A model generated the notes under the pieces. That model was not told the DNA's origin. It made no database searches and saw nothing but the letters and a program-made list of their open reading frames with translations. The translations under genes and the position numbers were made by a program. Source: Rhodospirillaceae bacterium (lineage in GTDB: Bacteria > Pseudomonadota > Alphaproteobacteria > UBA8366). From it: a stretch of DNA of 33,101 nt. Each line of letters starts with the position of its first letter. Positions within the stretch are counted from its first letter, which is position 1. Location: NCBI GenBank assembly GCA_002716125.1, contig PAZH01000012.1:15083-48183 (forward strand). Reading direction: 5' to 3'. Below, piece by piece: positions 1 to 27,961 of the stretch.

Positions 1-1173
1 TGGGCGCTGAGCTTGATCAGCTCCGGTCACTATCTCAGCCATTTTTACGGCTTGGCCTTACCGCCGCTCTTCCCGCTGCTAAAGACCGAGTTCGGCGTGA
101 CCTATATCGAACTTGGCCTGGCGATGACCGCCTATGGGTTCCTAGGCGGCCTCGTGCAGGCCCCCGTGGGCTTTCTCGTCGACCGGCTGGGTCCGAGCCG
201 GGTATTGCTCGCGGGCATGGCCTTGATCGCCACATCCGTTCTGCTCATGGGGTTCGTCTCCTCATATTGGATGCTGCTGGTGCTCGCGGTGTTCGCCGGA
301 CTCGGCAACAGCGTTTTCCATCCAGCGGACTACGCCATCCTGGCGGGCTCGGTCGGCGAGAAACGCTTAGGCCGCGCGTATTCTTTGCACACCTTCTCCG
401 GCTTCCTCGGCGGTGCCTGTGCGCCGGTCGCGATGCTCGCGCTGGCCGCCTATTGGGATTGGCGGACGGCCTTGATCGTCACCGGTGGCGTCGGACTCAT
501 CGTCTTCGCCGCCATGGCGCTCCGGCGCGACGTGCTCGTCGGCGAGGAACGCAAAGCGGATGCCCCGGCGGAAGACGCTAAATCTACATCCGGGTTGGCC
601 CTGTTGATGACGGCGCCTGTGTTGCTGTTCCTTGCATTTTTCATCCTCTACGGCGTGGCGAGCGGCGGCCTTCTCGCTTTCACCGTCAGCGGATTGATCA
701 ACTTACACGGGATCGGTCTCGACGCCGCGAATACAGCCCTGACCGGCCACCTCTTCGGTGTCGTCGGCGGTATTTTCCTCGCCGGATTGATCGCGGATCG
801 TTACCCGCGTCATATCGTGACCGGCGTCGCCGCACTCGCTCTCGCGGCGGTCGCGACGTTGCTGCCGGTACTCGGCTTCTCTTCCGCGATCGCTTTGATC
901 GTCATCATGACGCTTGCCGGTGTCGGTCTTGGTGGTGTGCTGCCGCCCCGCGATCTTATGCTCAAGGCGGTGATCCCGCCCGGTCAGACGGGCAAGGTTT
1001 TTGGCTTTGTTTTCGTTGGGTATTCACTTGGCGTCGCCGTGGCGCCGCCTGCCCTCGGCTCTTATCTCGATGCCGGGCAGCCTTCGATGGTCTTCATCGC
1101 CTGCGCAGGTTTCGCCGCCCTGTCGCTGGTGGCCATCGTTGCCGCGAACATGGCCGCGGCGCGAAAAGGCTAG
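1..1173 (+). CDS. MFS transporter, 5'-truncated by window edge
   Basis: This is a major facilitator superfamily permease, an inner-membrane carrier probably exporting or importing a small organic solute. The frame is open from base 1, and the residues before the first possible start (TTG at 13) already look like transmembrane helix 1, with Gly-His-Tyr and Ser-His-Phe-Tyr. The true start therefore lies upstream of the window. About 12 hydrophobic segments are visible, with the MFS loop 2-3 signature near residues 50-60 (GFLVDRLGPSR) and the repeat of it in the second half (GLIADRYPR). A charged central loop rich in Glu, Ala and Lys separates the two six-helix halves near residue 180. The Phe-His-Pro-Ala-Asp motif near residue 97 resembles Fsr-like (fosmidomycin resistance type) members, but that does not fix a substrate. 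It converges on the alpha-hydroxy-acid oxidase and shares the CTAG that stops both genes. Confidence 0.9.
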   Translation, partial: WALSLISSGHYLSHFYGLALPPLFPLLKTEFGVTYIELGLAMTAYGFLGGLVQAPVGFLVDRLGPSRVLLAGMALIATSVLLMGFVSSYWMLLVLAVFAGLGNSVFHPADYAILAGSVGEKRLGRAYSLHTFSGFLGGACAPVAMLALAAYWDWRTALIVTGGVGLIVFAAMALRRDVLVGEERKADAPAEDAKSTSGLALLMTAPVLLFLAFFILYGVASGGLLAFTVSGLINLHGIGLDAANTALTGHLFGVVGGIFLAGLIADRYPRHIVTGVAALALAAVATLLPVLGFSSAIALIVIMTLAGVGLGGVLPPRDLMLKAVIPPGQTGKVFGFVFVGYSLGVAVAPPALGSYLDAGQPSMVFIACAGFAALSLVAIVAANMAAARKG

Positions 1174-2345
1174 GCCCGCAGGTTCTTCCGCGCTTCGTCG
1201 ATATCCCAATGCAAGAAGTCGGGGCCGAGTTGATCGAGCGCCGGACAGCCGAGCTGCTTCATATTGGTCTCGATCTCGGAACGCACGATCTCGACGGCTT
1301 TCGCAGCGCCCAACTGGCCGCCCGCGATACAGCCGTAAAGCGTCGGCCGGCCCATGAAGACGAATTTGGCGCCCATGCAAAGCGCGATCATGATATCGGC
1401 GCCCCGGCGCACGCCGCCGTCGAGCATCAAGGTCATCCGGTCACCAACCGCGGCATCAATCGCCGGCAGAACGTCGAGCGGCGCGGGCGCGCGGTCCAGC
1501 TGGCGAGCGCCATGGTTGGAGACCATCAATCCATCGACTCCAACTTCGGCGGCCCGGATCGCATCGTCGACCCGCATAATGCCTTTTAGGACCAGATTGC
1601 CGGGCCAAAGCTTGCGGAAGTTCTCGATATCCTTCCAGACGAGCGCCGCCGGGAACTGATCCGAGACGAACTCGCCGACTTGCTCCGGACTTGAACCTTC
1701 CGGCGCGTATTTCTCCCAGTTCGCAAGCATGGCGATACCATGGGTCAAATAATCTTTCATCCACAACGGATGTTTCAGTGCGTTAAACTTGCACTCCCAG
1801 GTCAGCTTCAGCGGCCGACCGAAACCGTTGCGCTTGTTCCGTTCGCGATTGCCGCTCGCCGGGACATCGACCGTTATCACCAACGTCTGGATACCGAGGT
1901 CATGGGCGCGCTTGATCTGATCCTCCGAGATCGAACGGTCCTTCGCCGTGTAAAGCTGGTACCAGCCATGATCCGGGCACTCACGCGCCATGTCCTCCAT
2001 CTTCGCCGTCGCGGCTCCGGACATGATGAAAGGGATATTTGCGTCGCGCGCGGCACGCGCCAGCATCAGATCGCCCTGATGGCGGTAGTTCGAAATGCCG
2101 CCCGTCGGTGCAATGCCGTAAGCGCTGGAATAGGTCCGCCCGAACAGTTCGGTCTCTTGGTTGATCGTCGTGATGTCGACCATATAGCGCGGCACCAGCG
2201 CGCGGTTGCGGAAAGCGTCTTCGTTCCGGACCAGGCCGGATTCGTCCTCGGATCCGCCTTCAATGAAATCGTAAATGAGCTTGGGCACACGCTTCTTGGC
2301 GAGTATCCGCAAGTCATCGAGGTTGATGCAATCGTCGACTTTCAT
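1170..2345 (-). CDS. FMN-dependent alpha-hydroxy-acid oxidase/dehydrogenase (LldD/MdlB-like)
   Basis: This FMN enzyme oxidises an L-2-hydroxy acid to the 2-keto acid; lactate, glycolate and mandelate are the usual family substrates. The 391-residue protein spans the whole TIM-barrel domain. Visible family residues are Tyr-Gln-Leu-Tyr at 129-132, Lys254 (LVLKGI), the catalytic His278 and Arg281 in SNHGARQLD, the phosphate-binding DGGVRRG at 309-315 and GRP at 332-334. The ATG at 2345 is preferred over the upstream in-frame GTG at 2363 because AGGGGA sits 6 bases before it. No membrane-anchoring loop is obvious, so it may be soluble or peripheral. Its stop codon overlaps the stop of the convergent MFS gene within CTAG. 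The exact substrate is not decidable from sequence; a transporter plus oxidase for a 2-hydroxy acid is a reasonable inference from the pairing. Confidence 0.93.
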   Translation of the reverse strand: MKVDDCINLDDLRILAKKRVPKLIYDFIEGGSEDESGLVRNEDAFRNRALVPRYMVDITTINQETELFGRTYSSAYGIAPTGGISNYRHQGDLMLARAARDANIPFIMSGAATAKMEDMARECPDHGWYQLYTAKDRSISEDQIKRAHDLGIQTLVITVDVPASGNRERNKRNGFGRPLKLTWECKFNALKHPLWMKDYLTHGIAMLANWEKYAPEGSSPEQVGEFVSDQFPAALVWKDIENFRKLWPGNLVLKGIMRVDDAIRAAEVGVDGLMVSNHGARQLDRAPAPLDVLPAIDAAVGDRMTLMLDGGVRRGADIMIALCMGAKFVFMGRPTLYGCIAGGQLGAAKAVEIVRSEIETNMKQLGCPALDQLGPDFLHWDIDEARKNLRA

Positions 2346-2433
2346 GGCATATCCCCTGCGCACGGCGCCCAGATGGCGCCCCGGACAGGTTTCAAACTAG
2401 CGCGAAGCCGGAAAACGGCGAGGTGTTTAGAAA

Positions 2434-2685: not shown

Positions 2686-3546
2686 TCAATACGGCGCTTC
2701 CACACCATCGTCCGTGACCCGTTTCTCCTGCCACTCAGTTCCCTTGTAATAGACCTGACGCTGCATCTCTTCGGCTTTCTGATGGAAGGCCACAGCCACC
2801 GGATCGAGATCGATTTGCGGCACCGGCTCATGCTCAAAATGCCCATAAGCGTCTTCACCGCGCACCAGAGCGGCGCTGTCCCAGTCGGCCAGAACTTGGC
2901 GTGTCTCCGGCGGAATATAACGCAAGACGATACCGATACGCCGGTCGTCGCTTTTATTGGGATGGGACGCGTGCGCGATCGAGTAATCGAAGAGCGCGGC
3001 TTCGCCCGTTTGCAATTCGACATTCACAGCCAGGCTCTCATCGACATCCATGATCGTCTGACCTCGGGTCAACATGTTGTGCTGGGCCCGTGTATCGACA
3101 TGCGGCATCGGCGGCTTCAGATGGCTGCCCGGCAGCATCCGCATGCAGCCGCTCTCGACGGTCGCCGGTGACAGCGCGATCCAGACACTCACTAGGTCCT
3201 TGGTGTCGAGGCCCCAATAGTTGTTGTCCTGATGCCAAGAGACGTAACTCGGGCTCTGCGGTTCTTTGATGAACCAATGCGTGGTCCAGCACAGGATATT
3301 CGGTCCGATCAAATCCTCGACCGGATCGAGAATGTGAGGCGCACGCACCAGATAGGCGAGCCATTTGAACAGGAGATGGGTTTTAAACCGATGCGCCCCC
3401 TTTAGCGACCCGCCGTTGGCCGCTTCAAACGCTTCCAATTGACGGCGATAGTCGGCCGCTTCGGTCTCCGTCACTCCTGGAATCGGAAAATGAAACCCGT
3501 CTCGTTTCAGATTTCCAATGGCATTCTCGTCCAGGGCTTTCGGCAT
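2686..3546 (-). CDS. Phytanoyl-CoA dioxygenase (PhyH) family Fe(II)/2-oxoglutarate oxygenase
   Basis: This 286-residue protein belongs to the PhyH family of non-haem Fe(II)/2-oxoglutarate oxygenases, which hydroxylate unactivated carbons of small molecules. The metal-binding triad is visible as His105-x-Asp107 in the motif SWHQDNN and a distal His at about 192 (IAHASHPN). It is followed by the family's Arg in DDRRIG (202-205), which anchors 2-oxoglutarate. The N-terminus (PKALDENAI, then DGF-FPI) is typical of bacterial PhyH proteins and supports the ATG at 3546, with GGAG at a workable distance. The gene begins inside the 3' end of the AhpD-like gene, overlapping it by 122 bases in a different frame, so the two are probably co-transcribed. 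Substrate is unknown: bacterial PhyH proteins act on many compounds and the name does not imply phytanoyl-CoA. Confidence 0.93.
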   Translation of the reverse strand: MPKALDENAIGNLKRDGFHFPIPGVTETEAADYRRQLEAFEAANGGSLKGAHRFKTHLLFKWLAYLVRAPHILDPVEDLIGPNILCWTTHWFIKEPQSPSYVSWHQDNNYWGLDTKDLVSVWIALSPATVESGCMRMLPGSHLKPPMPHVDTRAQHNMLTRGQTIMDVDESLAVNVELQTGEAALFDYSIAHASHPNKSDDRRIGIVLRYIPPETRQVLADWDSAALVRGEDAYGHFEHEPVPQIDLDPVAVAFHQKAEEMQRQVYYKGTEWQEKRVTDDGVEAPY

Positions 3547-4075
3547 CTCCCGCTCCCGATTCGGCTGCGTCCTGCGTCGGCATACCGGTCAGGCTTTCCA
3601 TCGCATGATCCTCGGGCTCAATCCCAAACATATTATTAAAGATATTCATCCCATGGAGCGTTGCCACGGTGAAGCCGATTTCGACGAGTTGCGCGTCGTC
3701 GAAAAACTCGCGCATCTCCGCAAACAATGCATCTGCGTTCTCGGTTTCGTTCTGTGACATGGCCGAGGCAAAGCGCAAAACGGCACGCTCCCGAGGCGTG
3801 AAAACCGCATGGTCGGGATTATGCACTTCGGCTAATTTTTCTTCTGTCATACCGGCATGCCGACCCGCGGCATAGCGATAATTCAGTCAATATCGGCACT
3901 CGTTGATGGTCGCGCAACGAATTCGGATCAACTCTTTCACGCTCGCGTCGACCCTATCACTTAGCCAGATACGCTCGTAAAACGCATTTAGTCCTTCCAG
4001 CAATTCCGGACAATTGCCCCGAACGCGCTGGCTATTCGGCAGGTCTTCGGAACCGGTCAGTTTCACATGCGGCAT
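3425..4075 (-). CDS. AhpD/carboxymuconolactone decarboxylase-like protein with in-frame TGA; candidate selenoprotein (Cys-x-x-Sec)
   Basis: Read through one TGA (3887-3889), this gene encodes 216 residues of the AhpD/CMD fold, whose members are peroxidase-linked thiol oxidoreductases or decarboxylases. The TGA is codon 63 and gives NEC60-R-Y-U63-LNYR; homologues have Cys there (CxxC). Glu48 sits 12 residues before Cys60, the same spacing as Glu118, Cys130 and Cys133 of mycobacterial AhpD, while the usual His four residues on is Arg67. The frame stays open and family-like for about 100 codons after the TGA (MTEEKLAEVH, then FTPRERAVLRFASAMS). A hairpin matching bacterial SECIS rules follows the TGA. 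The ATG at 4075 is chosen because GAGGA lies 9 bases upstream. The last 40 codons overlap the PhyH gene in another frame and look out of character, so a late frameshift that removed the native stop is possible. The alternative reading is a nonsense-mutated pseudogene or a base error (TGC to TGA). The gene is certain; decoding as Sec is likely but unproven. Confidence 0.72.
3850..3880 (-). promoter_or_regulatory. Candidate bacterial SECIS element
   Basis: Starting 6 bases after the in-frame TGA, the minus strand holds the arm TATCGCTATGCCG, a loop CGGGT, and the arm CGGCATGCCGGTA. Twelve of the 13 positions pair (two are G-U), with a single C-C mismatch eight positions from the loop. The loop begins 19 bases after the TGA, is 5 bases long, and has G as its second base. 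These values fall within the published bacterial SECIS pattern: a loop of 3-14 bases, G among its first two bases, and 16-37 bases from the TGA. SelB would bind the loop to deliver Sec-tRNA. Minimum-free-energy folding and comparison with homologues have not been done. Confidence 0.62.
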
Positions 4076-4270: not shown

Positions 4271-5467
4271 ATGACCGGCCGCCTTTGGTTCATGGTTGCT
4301 TGCGGCGTTGTCGTCGTTTTGATCGGCGGCGGGTTGCGGCAGATTTTTGGCGTGTTCCAGGTCGAAGTCACTCAAGAGCTGGACATTGGCTTCGGCCCCT
4401 TCGGTCTCGTTATCGGTATACAGGCACTTATCCTCGGGATCGCACAGCCGGCCTCCGGTCTCTTGGCCGACAAATTCGGCTCCGTACGGGTTATCATTGC
4501 AGGTGCCTTAATTTACGCGCTTGGGCTGTGGTGGGCCGGGCAAAGCACGTCGGCTTGGGAATTGGCGGTCTCGCTGGGGCTGATCGTCGGCATCGGCCTC
4601 ACCGGCCCGACACAAGTGCTCGTCCTCGGCGCGGTCGGAAAAGTCATTCCGGACAATCGCCATTCCTTCATCTTCGGTACGATCATCGCTTCGACGTCGC
4701 TCGGGGGCGCGCTCCTGATTCCCGTTGTTTTCCAGGTTATCCAGTCTTTCGATTGGCGAACGGCTTTTAGTGTCGCCGCACTCGTAATTGTGGTTCTGCC
4801 GCTCGTGGCCTTAGGTCTCTACAATAAGGGGCCCGCCGCGGACGGCGGTCCTCGGCAATCGATTCGCGACGCGATGACGGAAGCGCGATCGCATTCGGGA
4901 TTTATTCTCCTGACGCTGGGATTTTTTGTCTGCGGGTTTCACGTCACTTTCATTGGCACGCATCTACCGGCCTTTCTGACCGACAGCGGCCTATCGCCTG
5001 AATTTTCGGCCGACGCCCTCGCGATGGTGCTTTTTTGCAATGTCATCGGCGCCTTCTTGTTCGGAACGCTGGGCGACCGCTTCAGCAAGAAGAACTTGTT
5101 GACGTTGCTCTATGCCGCCCGGGCGGCGCTCATGATCGCTATGCTCATGGTGCCCATCAGCGAAACCACGACGATTATATTCTGTGTGGCCATGGGATTC
5201 TTATGGCTTTCGACCGTACCGCTGACCAGCGGTCTCGTCGCACAGATCTTCGGTACGCAATATTTCTCGATGCTTTTCGGGATTGTTTTCATGAGCCACC
5301 AGATCGGCGGATTTCTTGGTGCATGGCTTGCCGGGTATATCTTCGACACGACAGGATCGTACGACCTAATGTGGATCGCGGCAGCGGCCCTTGGCGTCGT
5401 CTCCGCGCTGCTTCATTGGCCGATCCAGGAACAACCGCTGGAGCGCCTTTCGGCTCAAGCAAGTTAG
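4271..5467 (+). CDS. MFS transporter (monocarboxylate/OFA-like)
   Basis: This is a complete 398-residue MFS permease with about 12 membrane helices. The N-terminal half carries the loop 2-3 signature GLLADKFGSVR near residue 64 and the second half its echo GTLGDRFSKK near residue 263. Helix 1 with Gly-Gly-Gly-x-Arg-Gln-x-Phe-Gly-Val-Phe resembles monocarboxylate and oxalate:formate-type carriers, so an organic anion is the likely cargo (inference). The ATG at 4271 follows GGAG at a slightly long distance. It heads a plus-strand series: the GMC oxidoreductase follows after 66 bases, then the alcohol dehydrogenase and the HIBADH-like enzyme, suggesting uptake and stepwise oxidation of one compound. 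It is divergent from the AhpD-like/PhyH unit. Confidence 0.92.
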   Translation: MTGRLWFMVACGVVVVLIGGGLRQIFGVFQVEVTQELDIGFGPFGLVIGIQALILGIAQPASGLLADKFGSVRVIIAGALIYALGLWWAGQSTSAWELAVSLGLIVGIGLTGPTQVLVLGAVGKVIPDNRHSFIFGTIIASTSLGGALLIPVVFQVIQSFDWRTAFSVAALVIVVLPLVALGLYNKGPAADGGPRQSIRDAMTEARSHSGFILLTLGFFVCGFHVTFIGTHLPAFLTDSGLSPEFSADALAMVLFCNVIGAFLFGTLGDRFSKKNLLTLLYAARAALMIAMLMVPISETTTIIFCVAMGFLWLSTVPLTSGLVAQIFGTQYFSMLFGIVFMSHQIGGFLGAWLAGYIFDTTGSYDLMWIAAAALGVVSALLHWPIQEQPLERLSAQAS

Positions 5468-25875: not shown

Positions 25876-27888
25876 CTACTTCAATGTGTTTTTGGCTTGG
25901 GCCGGAAACGTGACGGACCTCAACTCGTATCGCTCCGAAGAACCTGCGTCGGTGTTCTTGAGGCTCGCATACTGTTCTGCCGGTTGCTGTTTTCCCGACC
26001 ATTCCCGGACGGATTTTACGACCAAACCCGATTTCGGGTGGTACCATTGGCGCTGCTCGAACACGCGACCAAGCGAACTACGCGCCATCGTTCTAATGAC
26101 GAAAGTGTCTAATCTACGATTGACCACGGTGATAGCTTCGGCACCTTCCACAACAAGGTCAAACGACCACTCATCGACATACGGAACGTCGAAAGCGGTC
26201 GGCGGCGCGTATTCCTCAAGATCAAACTTGGTTCCGTTCCCCACCTTTAAAGGAAATAACCCCAACAAGGCAGCGTGCGCGGTCTTGGAAACCTTGAGTG
26301 AAGGCTTGCTGCAGCCATCGGCAAATATCTTTCCATCGTTGACGGTTGTAAAAACGCGCTCCCCACTCTGAAAGATGCCTGCCGTAAGTTTGAAATGGTT
26401 ACCCGCTTTCGTGAGAATTTCGGCTTCATTTCTGGCAGCATCGATTACTTGGAATTGTTGAGTATCGTATTCCACGCGTGTCCCTTTGGGGACCAAGACG
26501 AATTCGGCGGCGGGCAACTCGATTGAAATCGGCAACGCCTTCTCCGCCGGCGTCGTTTCCGCCGAGCGGTTGGGCATTCCGGCAGCTAATTGGCGACGTT
26601 GTCGCTCGGCTTCCGATCGCCGTTCCGCCGCCGCCAGGCGAGTCCGCTCAGCGGCCAGTCGTTCACGCTCTGCTTTTAGACGAGCCTCCAGTTCGCGATT
26701 GCGCCTTTCAGCCTCCGAGGCAAGGCGTCTTCTTTCTTCTTCAAGGCGTTCTTTTTCAGCCTGGAGATTTTTTCTTTCATTTTCCATCAGCGCTTGGCTT
26801 CGCTGAATCGACGCAATTTTAACTTCGGCCAAAGCCGAAAACGTTTCACCAGGGTATTGGGCGAGGTAGGCTTGATAAGCGGCTGCGTCACCGCTTTCCT
26901 TTATCGATTCCCAAAACACCGTTTCCTGTTGAAGTTTGGCCGCTTCGGCCATGGCGCTCGGATTGGACAGATTGGTCGGCGGCGTTCCAGGTTTCGTGTT
27001 CGGACTTCGCGTGGGCAATCCGAACACGAAATCGCCTCGATCCCATCCTTTGTCGCGAAGCTTTCCATATCGGGGCGTTTGCTTGGATTGCGTCAGGTTG
27101 GTGGCCCTGTCGGTTAGAAAGAGGCCAACTTCGCTTGCCGTCAAATAACCGTCTCCGTTTGCATCAGCATTCTCTTCGCCCTTAAGAGCCCGGATAAAGA
27201 GCTCCCGAAACCCACCATCATCCGAGACTGTCTGCCCCGCATCTCCGGACGTGAGGAATTGGCGCACCGGCAGTGTGGTCGCACGAGTCACGGCGGCAGG
27301 TGGCAAAGCACGCGCTGAATCGAACACTGTGCCGGAGAAACATGAATCGAATACCGCAAAAGCGTGTTTTGATTGTGCTAAACGGACGTATTCACCCATT
27401 CGCCGAAGCGAAAGCGCTTTGACACGAAATCTGCCGCCAGCCTCCGGTCTCGGCGCATCGGCCGGAATAAGGAATCCTTCGTCATTCTCCGTATGGCCAT
27501 GACCGGCAAACCATGCGAAGAGCCGTGCATTCGGGTCTTCGCCCCGAAGCAAGAAGAAATCCTCAAGCGCGCGGTCGAGCTCTCTAGCTTTCAGGTTTAA
27601 CTTTAAGTCAACGCTGAAGCCGCGTTCTTTTAACAAATCTGCGATTAAAGTCGCGTCTTTTACGGCATTTGAAAGATGAGGCCACCCGTTCTCGTAAGCA
27701 TCGATCCCAATGACGAGCGCGTAAGACGCACCGAAGAGCTCGACCTCTTCAATTACGGCCGCGTCTTTATCCGCATTCTCGCGGAGGGAAACCGAGAAGC
27801 CGCGCGTTTCTGCGGCGACCCCGCTGAAGGTAACGACCGTCATCAAAAAGGAGACAGCAGCAACCGAAACGCTTCCTACAGTCCTCAA
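25876..27888 (-). CDS. Exported caspase-like (peptidase C14) protein with EF-hand loop and coiled coil
   Basis: This approximately 670-residue protein begins with a signal peptide (RTVGSVSVAAVSFLMTVV, cleavage after GVAA). The caspase-fold domain covers about 50-290, with the dyad His130 (FAGHGH) and Cys183 (FDSCFSG). An EF-hand loop DANGDGYLTASE at 242-253 has Asp, Asn, Asp, Tyr, Thr and Glu at positions 1, 3, 5, 7, 9 and 12, so calcium may bind. YGKLRDKGWDRGDFVFGLP follows. A 75-residue highly charged coiled coil (about 360-435) precedes a roughly 200-residue C-terminal domain with no recognised family. The TTG at 27888 is preferred because AGAGGAGG lies 8 bases upstream; an in-frame GTG at 27912 lies upstream of that site. 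Base use in the coiled coil and tail is more A/T-rich than neighbours, and its place between UDG and Slt genes may mark an insertion. Confidence 0.88.
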   Translation of the reverse strand: MRTVGSVSVAAVSFLMTVVTFSGVAAETRGFSVSLRENADKDAAVIEEVELFGASYALVIGIDAYENGWPHLSNAVKDATLIADLLKERGFSVDLKLNLKARELDRALEDFFLLRGEDPNARLFAWFAGHGHTENDEGFLIPADAPRPEAGGRFRVKALSLRRMGEYVRLAQSKHAFAVFDSCFSGTVFDSARALPPAAVTRATTLPVRQFLTSGDAGQTVSDDGGFRELFIRALKGEENADANGDGYLTASEVGLFLTDRATNLTQSKQTPRYGKLRDKGWDRGDFVFGLPTRSPNTKPGTPPTNLSNPSAMAEAAKLQQETVFWESIKESGDAAAYQAYLAQYPGETFSALAEVKIASIQRSQALMENERKNLQAEKERLEEERRRLASEAERRNRELEARLKAERERLAAERTRLAAAERRSEAERQRRQLAAGMPNRSAETTPAEKALPISIELPAAEFVLVPKGTRVEYDTQQFQVIDAARNEAEILTKAGNHFKLTAGIFQSGERVFTTVNDGKIFADGCSKPSLKVSKTAHAALLGLFPLKVGNGTKFDLEEYAPPTAFDVPYVDEWSFDLVVEGAEAITVVNRRLDTFVIRTMARSSLGRVFEQRQWYHPKSGLVVKSVREWSGKQQPAEQYASLKNTDAGSSERYELRSVTFPAQAKNTLK

Positions 27889-27961
27889 GCCTCGTTCCTC
27901 CTCTCGATGCACAAAGAGTTACAATGGGTCGTACCGCGACGTCTCCACATTATCCCGCACT

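Follow-up and report, generated by a model that had tools for sequence, protein, structure and literature searches.

The gene at positions 4075 to 3560 on the minus strand of the window (the whole 33,101-nucleotide stretch of DNA analysed here) very likely encodes a selenoprotein, in which an in-frame UGA is read as selenocysteine (Sec) by way of a predicted SECIS hairpin to give a predicted Cys-x-x-Sec enzyme of the AhpD/CMD fold. We regard it as a genuine Sec gene because the UGA recurs in three species, distant homologues carry Cys, the hairpin and the protein past the UGA are under selection, and selA, selB, selD and tRNA-Sec are present. The features that mark a bacterial selenoprotein gene, namely an in-frame UGA at the Cys of the homologues, a full Sec machinery and a SECIS-type hairpin, are found here together.

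The minus-strand frame from 4075 to 3425 is interrupted solely by the TGA at codon 63 (3889-3887), in the context C60-R-Y-TGA-L-N-Y-R, as described in the initial annotation. Its conserved part comprises codons 1-172 (3560..4075, minus), with 172-codon orthologues in two other genomes. When the TGA is read as Cys, the translation matches Pfam CMD with 53 bits (cut-off 23) over residues 23-104, which places the TGA within the CMD domain. The translation also passes the NCBIfam model of the AhpD core domain, TIGR00778 (34.4 bits, cut-off 27.8). A score above the gathering threshold together with an AhpD-like fold places the protein in the CMD/AhpD superfamily (PF02627). A survey of the class found matches at E 1e-20 or better in 14 of 385 genomes, the own genome among them, and all 16 distant loci from this survey have Cys at both the C60 and the codon-63 columns. 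The TGA (3887..3889, minus) therefore occupies the position of the second Cys of CxxC, in line with the earlier claim that it aligns with a redox Cys. Cys60 (3896..3898, minus), the putative partner of Sec in CxxU, is kept in the orthologues as well as in the 16 distant homologues. Glu48 (3932..3934, minus), a candidate proton-relay residue 12 positions before Cys60, aligns with a Glu of the Pseudomonas aeruginosa protein PA0269; its column holds Glu in 14 and Gln in two of the distant homologues. The AhpD spacing of Glu48, Cys60 and residue 63 noted at the outset is borne out, with all three residues in place. A draw of 398 genomes from the phylum gave no match at E 1e-25 beyond the own genome, and viral contigs yielded no relative, either by protein patterns or by the DNA pattern of the hairpin. 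The 156 plasmid records all fall below 60% identity (28-33% among the 10 matches listed).

Among 43 genomes of the order, matches at E 1e-20 or better occur in three: the own genome, one genome of the same genus (locus L027; 91% identical to the window protein across the conserved 172 residues) and one from a different family (locus L028; 74% identical). The two loci returned by a scan of genome contigs, in records titled Rickettsiales bacterium RS378 (TaraRedSea) and uncultured Rhodospirillaceae bacterium, are identical to L027 and L028, respectively, so that the DNA comparison comprises three orthologues. All three carry TGA at codon 63, and its repetition in two other genomes excludes a single base-call error. 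Between the window gene and L027, dN amounts to 0.05 ahead of the hairpin region and 0.08 past it, with dS at 1.4 or saturated; by these rates, purifying selection acts on the gene both upstream and downstream of the TGA. The initial annotation had named a miscalled base at codon 63 and disabling mutations in relatives as grounds for abandoning the reading; neither was found.

The predicted bacterial SECIS hairpin (3850..3880, minus) has 12 pairs and the loop CGGGU (3863-3867). Its stem begins 6 bases and its loop 19 bases past the TGA, and it is the minimum free energy structure of 3892-3846; the geometry first proposed is reproduced in each of these respects. A hairpin that follows the UGA closely and has a small, G-containing apical loop conforms to the bacterial SECIS loop rule as given in PMC1088965; the initial annotation gives 16-37 bases as the permitted distance to the loop. 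The folding energy is ordinary (z of -0.86 for the window gene and between -0.88 and -1.59 for the three orthologues), and 609, 292 and 1174 of 5000 recodings of the three genes fold at least as well. A scan of both strands of the window finds the exact register with 12 of 12 pairs twice, once at the codon-63 TGA; among 5489 in-frame positions in 17 genes of the three loci it occurs at three, all accounted for by the three TGA sites. When the three genes are recoded at random with synonymous codons at local usage, all 12 pairs form in 459, 471 and 29 of 100,000 trials. Pairing is kept in all 36 cells (12 pairs in three genes); three pairs differ at both bases (A-U to U-A, U-A to C-G and C-G to U-A), and one-sided changes are absent. 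As good a result arises in 21 of 500 shuffles; slid versions of the hairpin show no two-sided change. All three two-sided changes fall on one branch, that of L028, and of their six bases three alter the protein (Y66F, R72Q and H73R), the other three being silent. Synonymous differences in codons 64-79 amount to 3.0 per 11.5 sites between the window gene and L027 (elsewhere 77.3 per 100.5; Fisher P 0.0015, from rounded counts) and to 5.0 per 11.5 between the window gene and L028 (elsewhere 85.4 per 103.8; P 0.011, likewise from rounded counts). A test of codon-identity conservation gives P 0.012 for the window gene and L027; the remaining pairs have P 0.43 and 0.39. By this pattern of substitution, the predicted hairpin is itself under selection.

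The machinery for Sec insertion is encoded in the same genome. The assembly, of which the window occupies part of contig C12, consists of 89 contigs (4.78 Mb, 87.59% complete, 5.48% contaminated) and contains a tRNA-Sec (78.7 bits, cut-off 47; called SeC with anticodon tca by ARAGORN), selB (454 bits), selA (594 bits, adjoining selB on contig C27) and selD (312 bits). All four genes whose presence had been left to be checked are above their curated cut-offs; only such matches are counted, as several loose families give sub-cut-off matches in control genomes. Both relatives come from draft assemblies: the L027 genome (64% complete) has tRNA-Sec, with selA not seen, and the L028 genome (93% complete, 530 contigs) has selA, with tRNA-Sec not seen. 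Three other genomes of L028's genus hold selA and a tRNA-Sec at 71.4 bits (G015-G017). We note that tRNA-Sec at 67 bits or more is found in 19 of the 43 genomes of the order, among them 10 of the 11 from family f1 and 9 of the 11 from f3 but none of the 14 from f2 or the 7 from f4; the Sec trait seems to be family-linked across the order, whereas the gene itself is found in only three genomes. The own genome likely encodes a second selenoprotein. A search for Rdx/SelW gave one match above its cut-off, a SelW-like gene (L054, G000:C74:21305-21511) with one in-frame TGA in MKVRIHYCQP-TGA-GYK. This layout is CxxU, as in the window gene, but the fold family (Rdx) is a different one, and the predicted downstream hairpin is weak (-8.7 kcal/mol). 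Sec-containing formate dehydrogenase gave nine matches in the own genome (87.59% complete), none of which is above the cut-off or has an internal stop.

With Cys placed at position 63, an AlphaFold2 model (pLDDT 90, pTM 0.85) finds its closest fold in PA0269 (2ijc, 2o4d), the nearest solved structure (profile score 84 bits, TM 0.69-0.71 by query). PA0269 shares the aligned Glu-12-Cys-x-Tyr-Cys arrangement with the window protein at 23-27% identity and differs in having Cys at position 63 and His in place of Arg67. Other peroxidase-related CMD proteins and the debrominase Bmp8 (6ohi, 6ohj) follow further down the fold list. Mycobacterium tuberculosis AhpD (1knc, 1gu9) is a weak fold match (E 0.65-0.80, TM 0.48-0.60). 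The relay of AhpD proper consists of Glu118, Cys130, His132, Cys133 and His137. Its CxxC is preceded by a Glu at 12 residues, as in the window protein, and the place of His137 is that of Arg67, four residues after Sec. In the window protein Glu48, Cys60 and residue 63 have their counterparts in this relay, but both His are replaced, by Tyr62 and Arg67, so that the protein does not qualify as an AhpD alkyl hydroperoxide reductase proper. The best NCBIfam match is NF053654, a YciW-related (seleno)protein (66-76 bits, residues 11-150); at 66.4 bits, far under the cut-off of 310, the window protein is not a member. None of four further NCBIfam (seleno)protein models is passed (NF041047, 33.5 of 110 bits; NF041238, 29.9 of 175; NF041537, 19.9 of 510; NF045649, 19.0 of 380).

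The gene stands in a catabolic neighbourhood. Next downstream lies a gene for a PhyH-family oxygenase (2686..3546, minus; Pfam PhyH, 106.7 bits), and beyond it one for an FMN-dependent hydroxyacid dehydrogenase/oxidase (1170..2363, minus; FMN_dh, 404.7 bits). A divergent MFS transporter (4271..5467, plus; MFS_1, 150.1 bits) is accompanied by further divergent genes for a GMC oxidoreductase, a Zn-dehydrogenase and a hydroxyisobutyrate-type dehydrogenase. The neighbourhood of L027 has matching families in matching places, including the PhyH gene directly after the CMD gene, the FMN-dependent enzyme and the divergent transporter. The Zn-dehydrogenase, which in the window is flanked by the GMC oxidoreductase and the hydroxyisobutyrate-type dehydrogenase, is the exception, as L027 3266-3908 holds no counterpart among frames of at least 150 aa. 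L028 has an enoyl-CoA hydratase, an enolase-superfamily protein and an MFS transporter on the downstream side of the gene, and the PhyH upstream of it is a different one, with 27% identity across 94 aa. Since PhyH comes next after the gene both in the window and in L027, and L028 has a different arrangement, the operon with PhyH put forward in the initial annotation is likely within the genus, and the case beyond it is weaker. Elsewhere in the window, 25876-27912 (minus) encodes a protein of 678 aa that contains a caspase domain (Peptidase_C14, 56.8 bits).

Judged by the neighbours and the fold, peroxide removal would be the most likely role of the enzyme. SelB carrying Sec-tRNA would bind the hairpin, and in the finished protein Sec63 would act as the attacking selenolate, by analogy with the mechanism of AhpD. 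Cys60 would resolve Sec63 through a selenenylsulfide, which a cellular thiol would then reduce again. With less assurance, the neighbouring oxygenase and the FMN-dependent hydroxyacid oxidase may be the source of the peroxide, or of a peroxidised substrate, that the enzyme would remove; either would arise during the breakdown of an organic acid. A different main work for the same Sec enzyme has, in our estimate, somewhat less than an even chance: it may reduce or dehalogenate some intermediate of the pathway, in the manner of Bmp8, or be a general thiol-disulfide oxidoreductase. Bmp8 matches the window protein by profile as well as by fold, the catabolic genes around it (MFS transporter, GMC oxidoreductase, Zn-dehydrogenase and hydroxyisobutyrate-type dehydrogenase) would suit such a role, and the best NCBIfam match of the window PhyH is 'chlorinating enzyme', albeit with 81.9 bits below a cut-off of 226.3. 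Against this, peroxidase-related proteins of the PA0269 type outscore Bmp8 (84 versus 37 bits), no NCBIfam halogenase model is passed at its cut-off, and the neighbours of L028 are different.

The database relatives of the protein are short, in keeping with the expectation that automated annotation would split the gene at its stop. The full-length protein as query has one hit, P0001, with 30% identity and with Ala and Glu at the two Cys/Sec positions; a full-length profile gives 25 hits, of which 24 are 94-109 aa in length and P0001 alone is full-length. The part after the UGA gives 30 hits of 67-109 aa, 18 of them of 97 aa, under length limits that would have admitted a 172-aa Cys form. The letters of 23 of these hits were read and 19 were aligned; all 19 begin at or after residue 64, and 17 end at the column of residue 172. 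P0030, one of the four hits read and left unaligned, starts with unrelated sequence. As the hits are short and start where they do, gene callers seem to cut the family at the UGA, the presence of a UGA upstream of each cluster being presumed. Names among the hits suggest Gammaproteobacteria as further hosts (P0023, Chromatiales; P0032, Gammaproteobacteria). A CMD paralogue flagged with one TGA (L019) was considered as a further TGA gene and rejected, as this TGA is its natural end.

That gene callers place a 97-aa protein here, a length shared by 18 of the 30 hits, would also fit a UGA that is a true stop, with a 62-codon product and a separate downstream protein starting at Met76. We consider this very improbable, as the CMD domain spans the UGA, both halves are conserved jointly in three species, position 63 is Cys in every one of the 16 homologues, and the genome has a complete Sec machinery.

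The preferred reading, a single Sec-containing protein, requires one correction to its length. Codon 173 (3557..3559, minus) is TCG in the window gene and a stop in both relatives (TAA and TAG), so the final 44 sense codons (173-216) look like a run-on into phyH. This stretch (3425..3556, minus) continues to a TGA stop, overlaps the start of phyH and is conserved in neither L027 nor L028. The initial annotation, with a gene of 217 codons and a protein of about 24 kDa, was too generous; the conserved protein probably has 172 aa and, by estimate, roughly 19-20 kDa. The TCG reflects either a real loss of the stop or an assembly error. It could be taken as the first sign of decay, but that the gene is decaying, that codon 63 is a sequencing error or that UGA has been reassigned to Trp is scarcely credible, given an identical TGA in three genomes, low dN with near-saturated dS on either side of it and, against Trp, the three of 15 named window genes that end in TGA and the 110 Trp codons written TGG, on which that last option was rejected.

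The enzyme is of an already known kind, that of CxxU CMD/AhpD-like selenoproteins. The statement in the initial annotation that such proteins had been reported from marine metagenomes holds: a 'CMD domain-containing protein' with CxxU (pfam02627) is listed in the Sargasso Sea set of 2005 (PMC1088965) and an 'AhpD-like 2' selenoprotein, also CxxU and pfam02627, in the GOS set (PMC2398784), with further Sec-containing CMD/AhpD-like CxxU proteins tabulated in PMC9312934 and PMC13188914. As far as the excerpts of these accounts go, the window gene has the Pfam family, the CxxU motif, the marine source and a SECIS-like hairpin in common with the Sargasso and GOS proteins, a likeness at the level of domain and motif. 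A search of the open-licence literature found no description of this very subfamily.

The window gene leaves the understanding of Sec insertion unchanged. It is a well-supported addition to the selenoprotein genes of marine Alphaproteobacteria and accounts for 30 protein clusters that exist only as short C-terminal pieces. We tentatively suggest, as a possibility that falls short of being probable, that it belongs to a Sec-committed CMD subfamily of marine Alpha- and Gammaproteobacteria, which would have no close Cys orthologue and would be tied to oxygenase-linked catabolism. If this is true, the subfamily together with the SelW-like protein would be a reason, in place of formate dehydrogenase, why these bacteria keep their Sec machinery.
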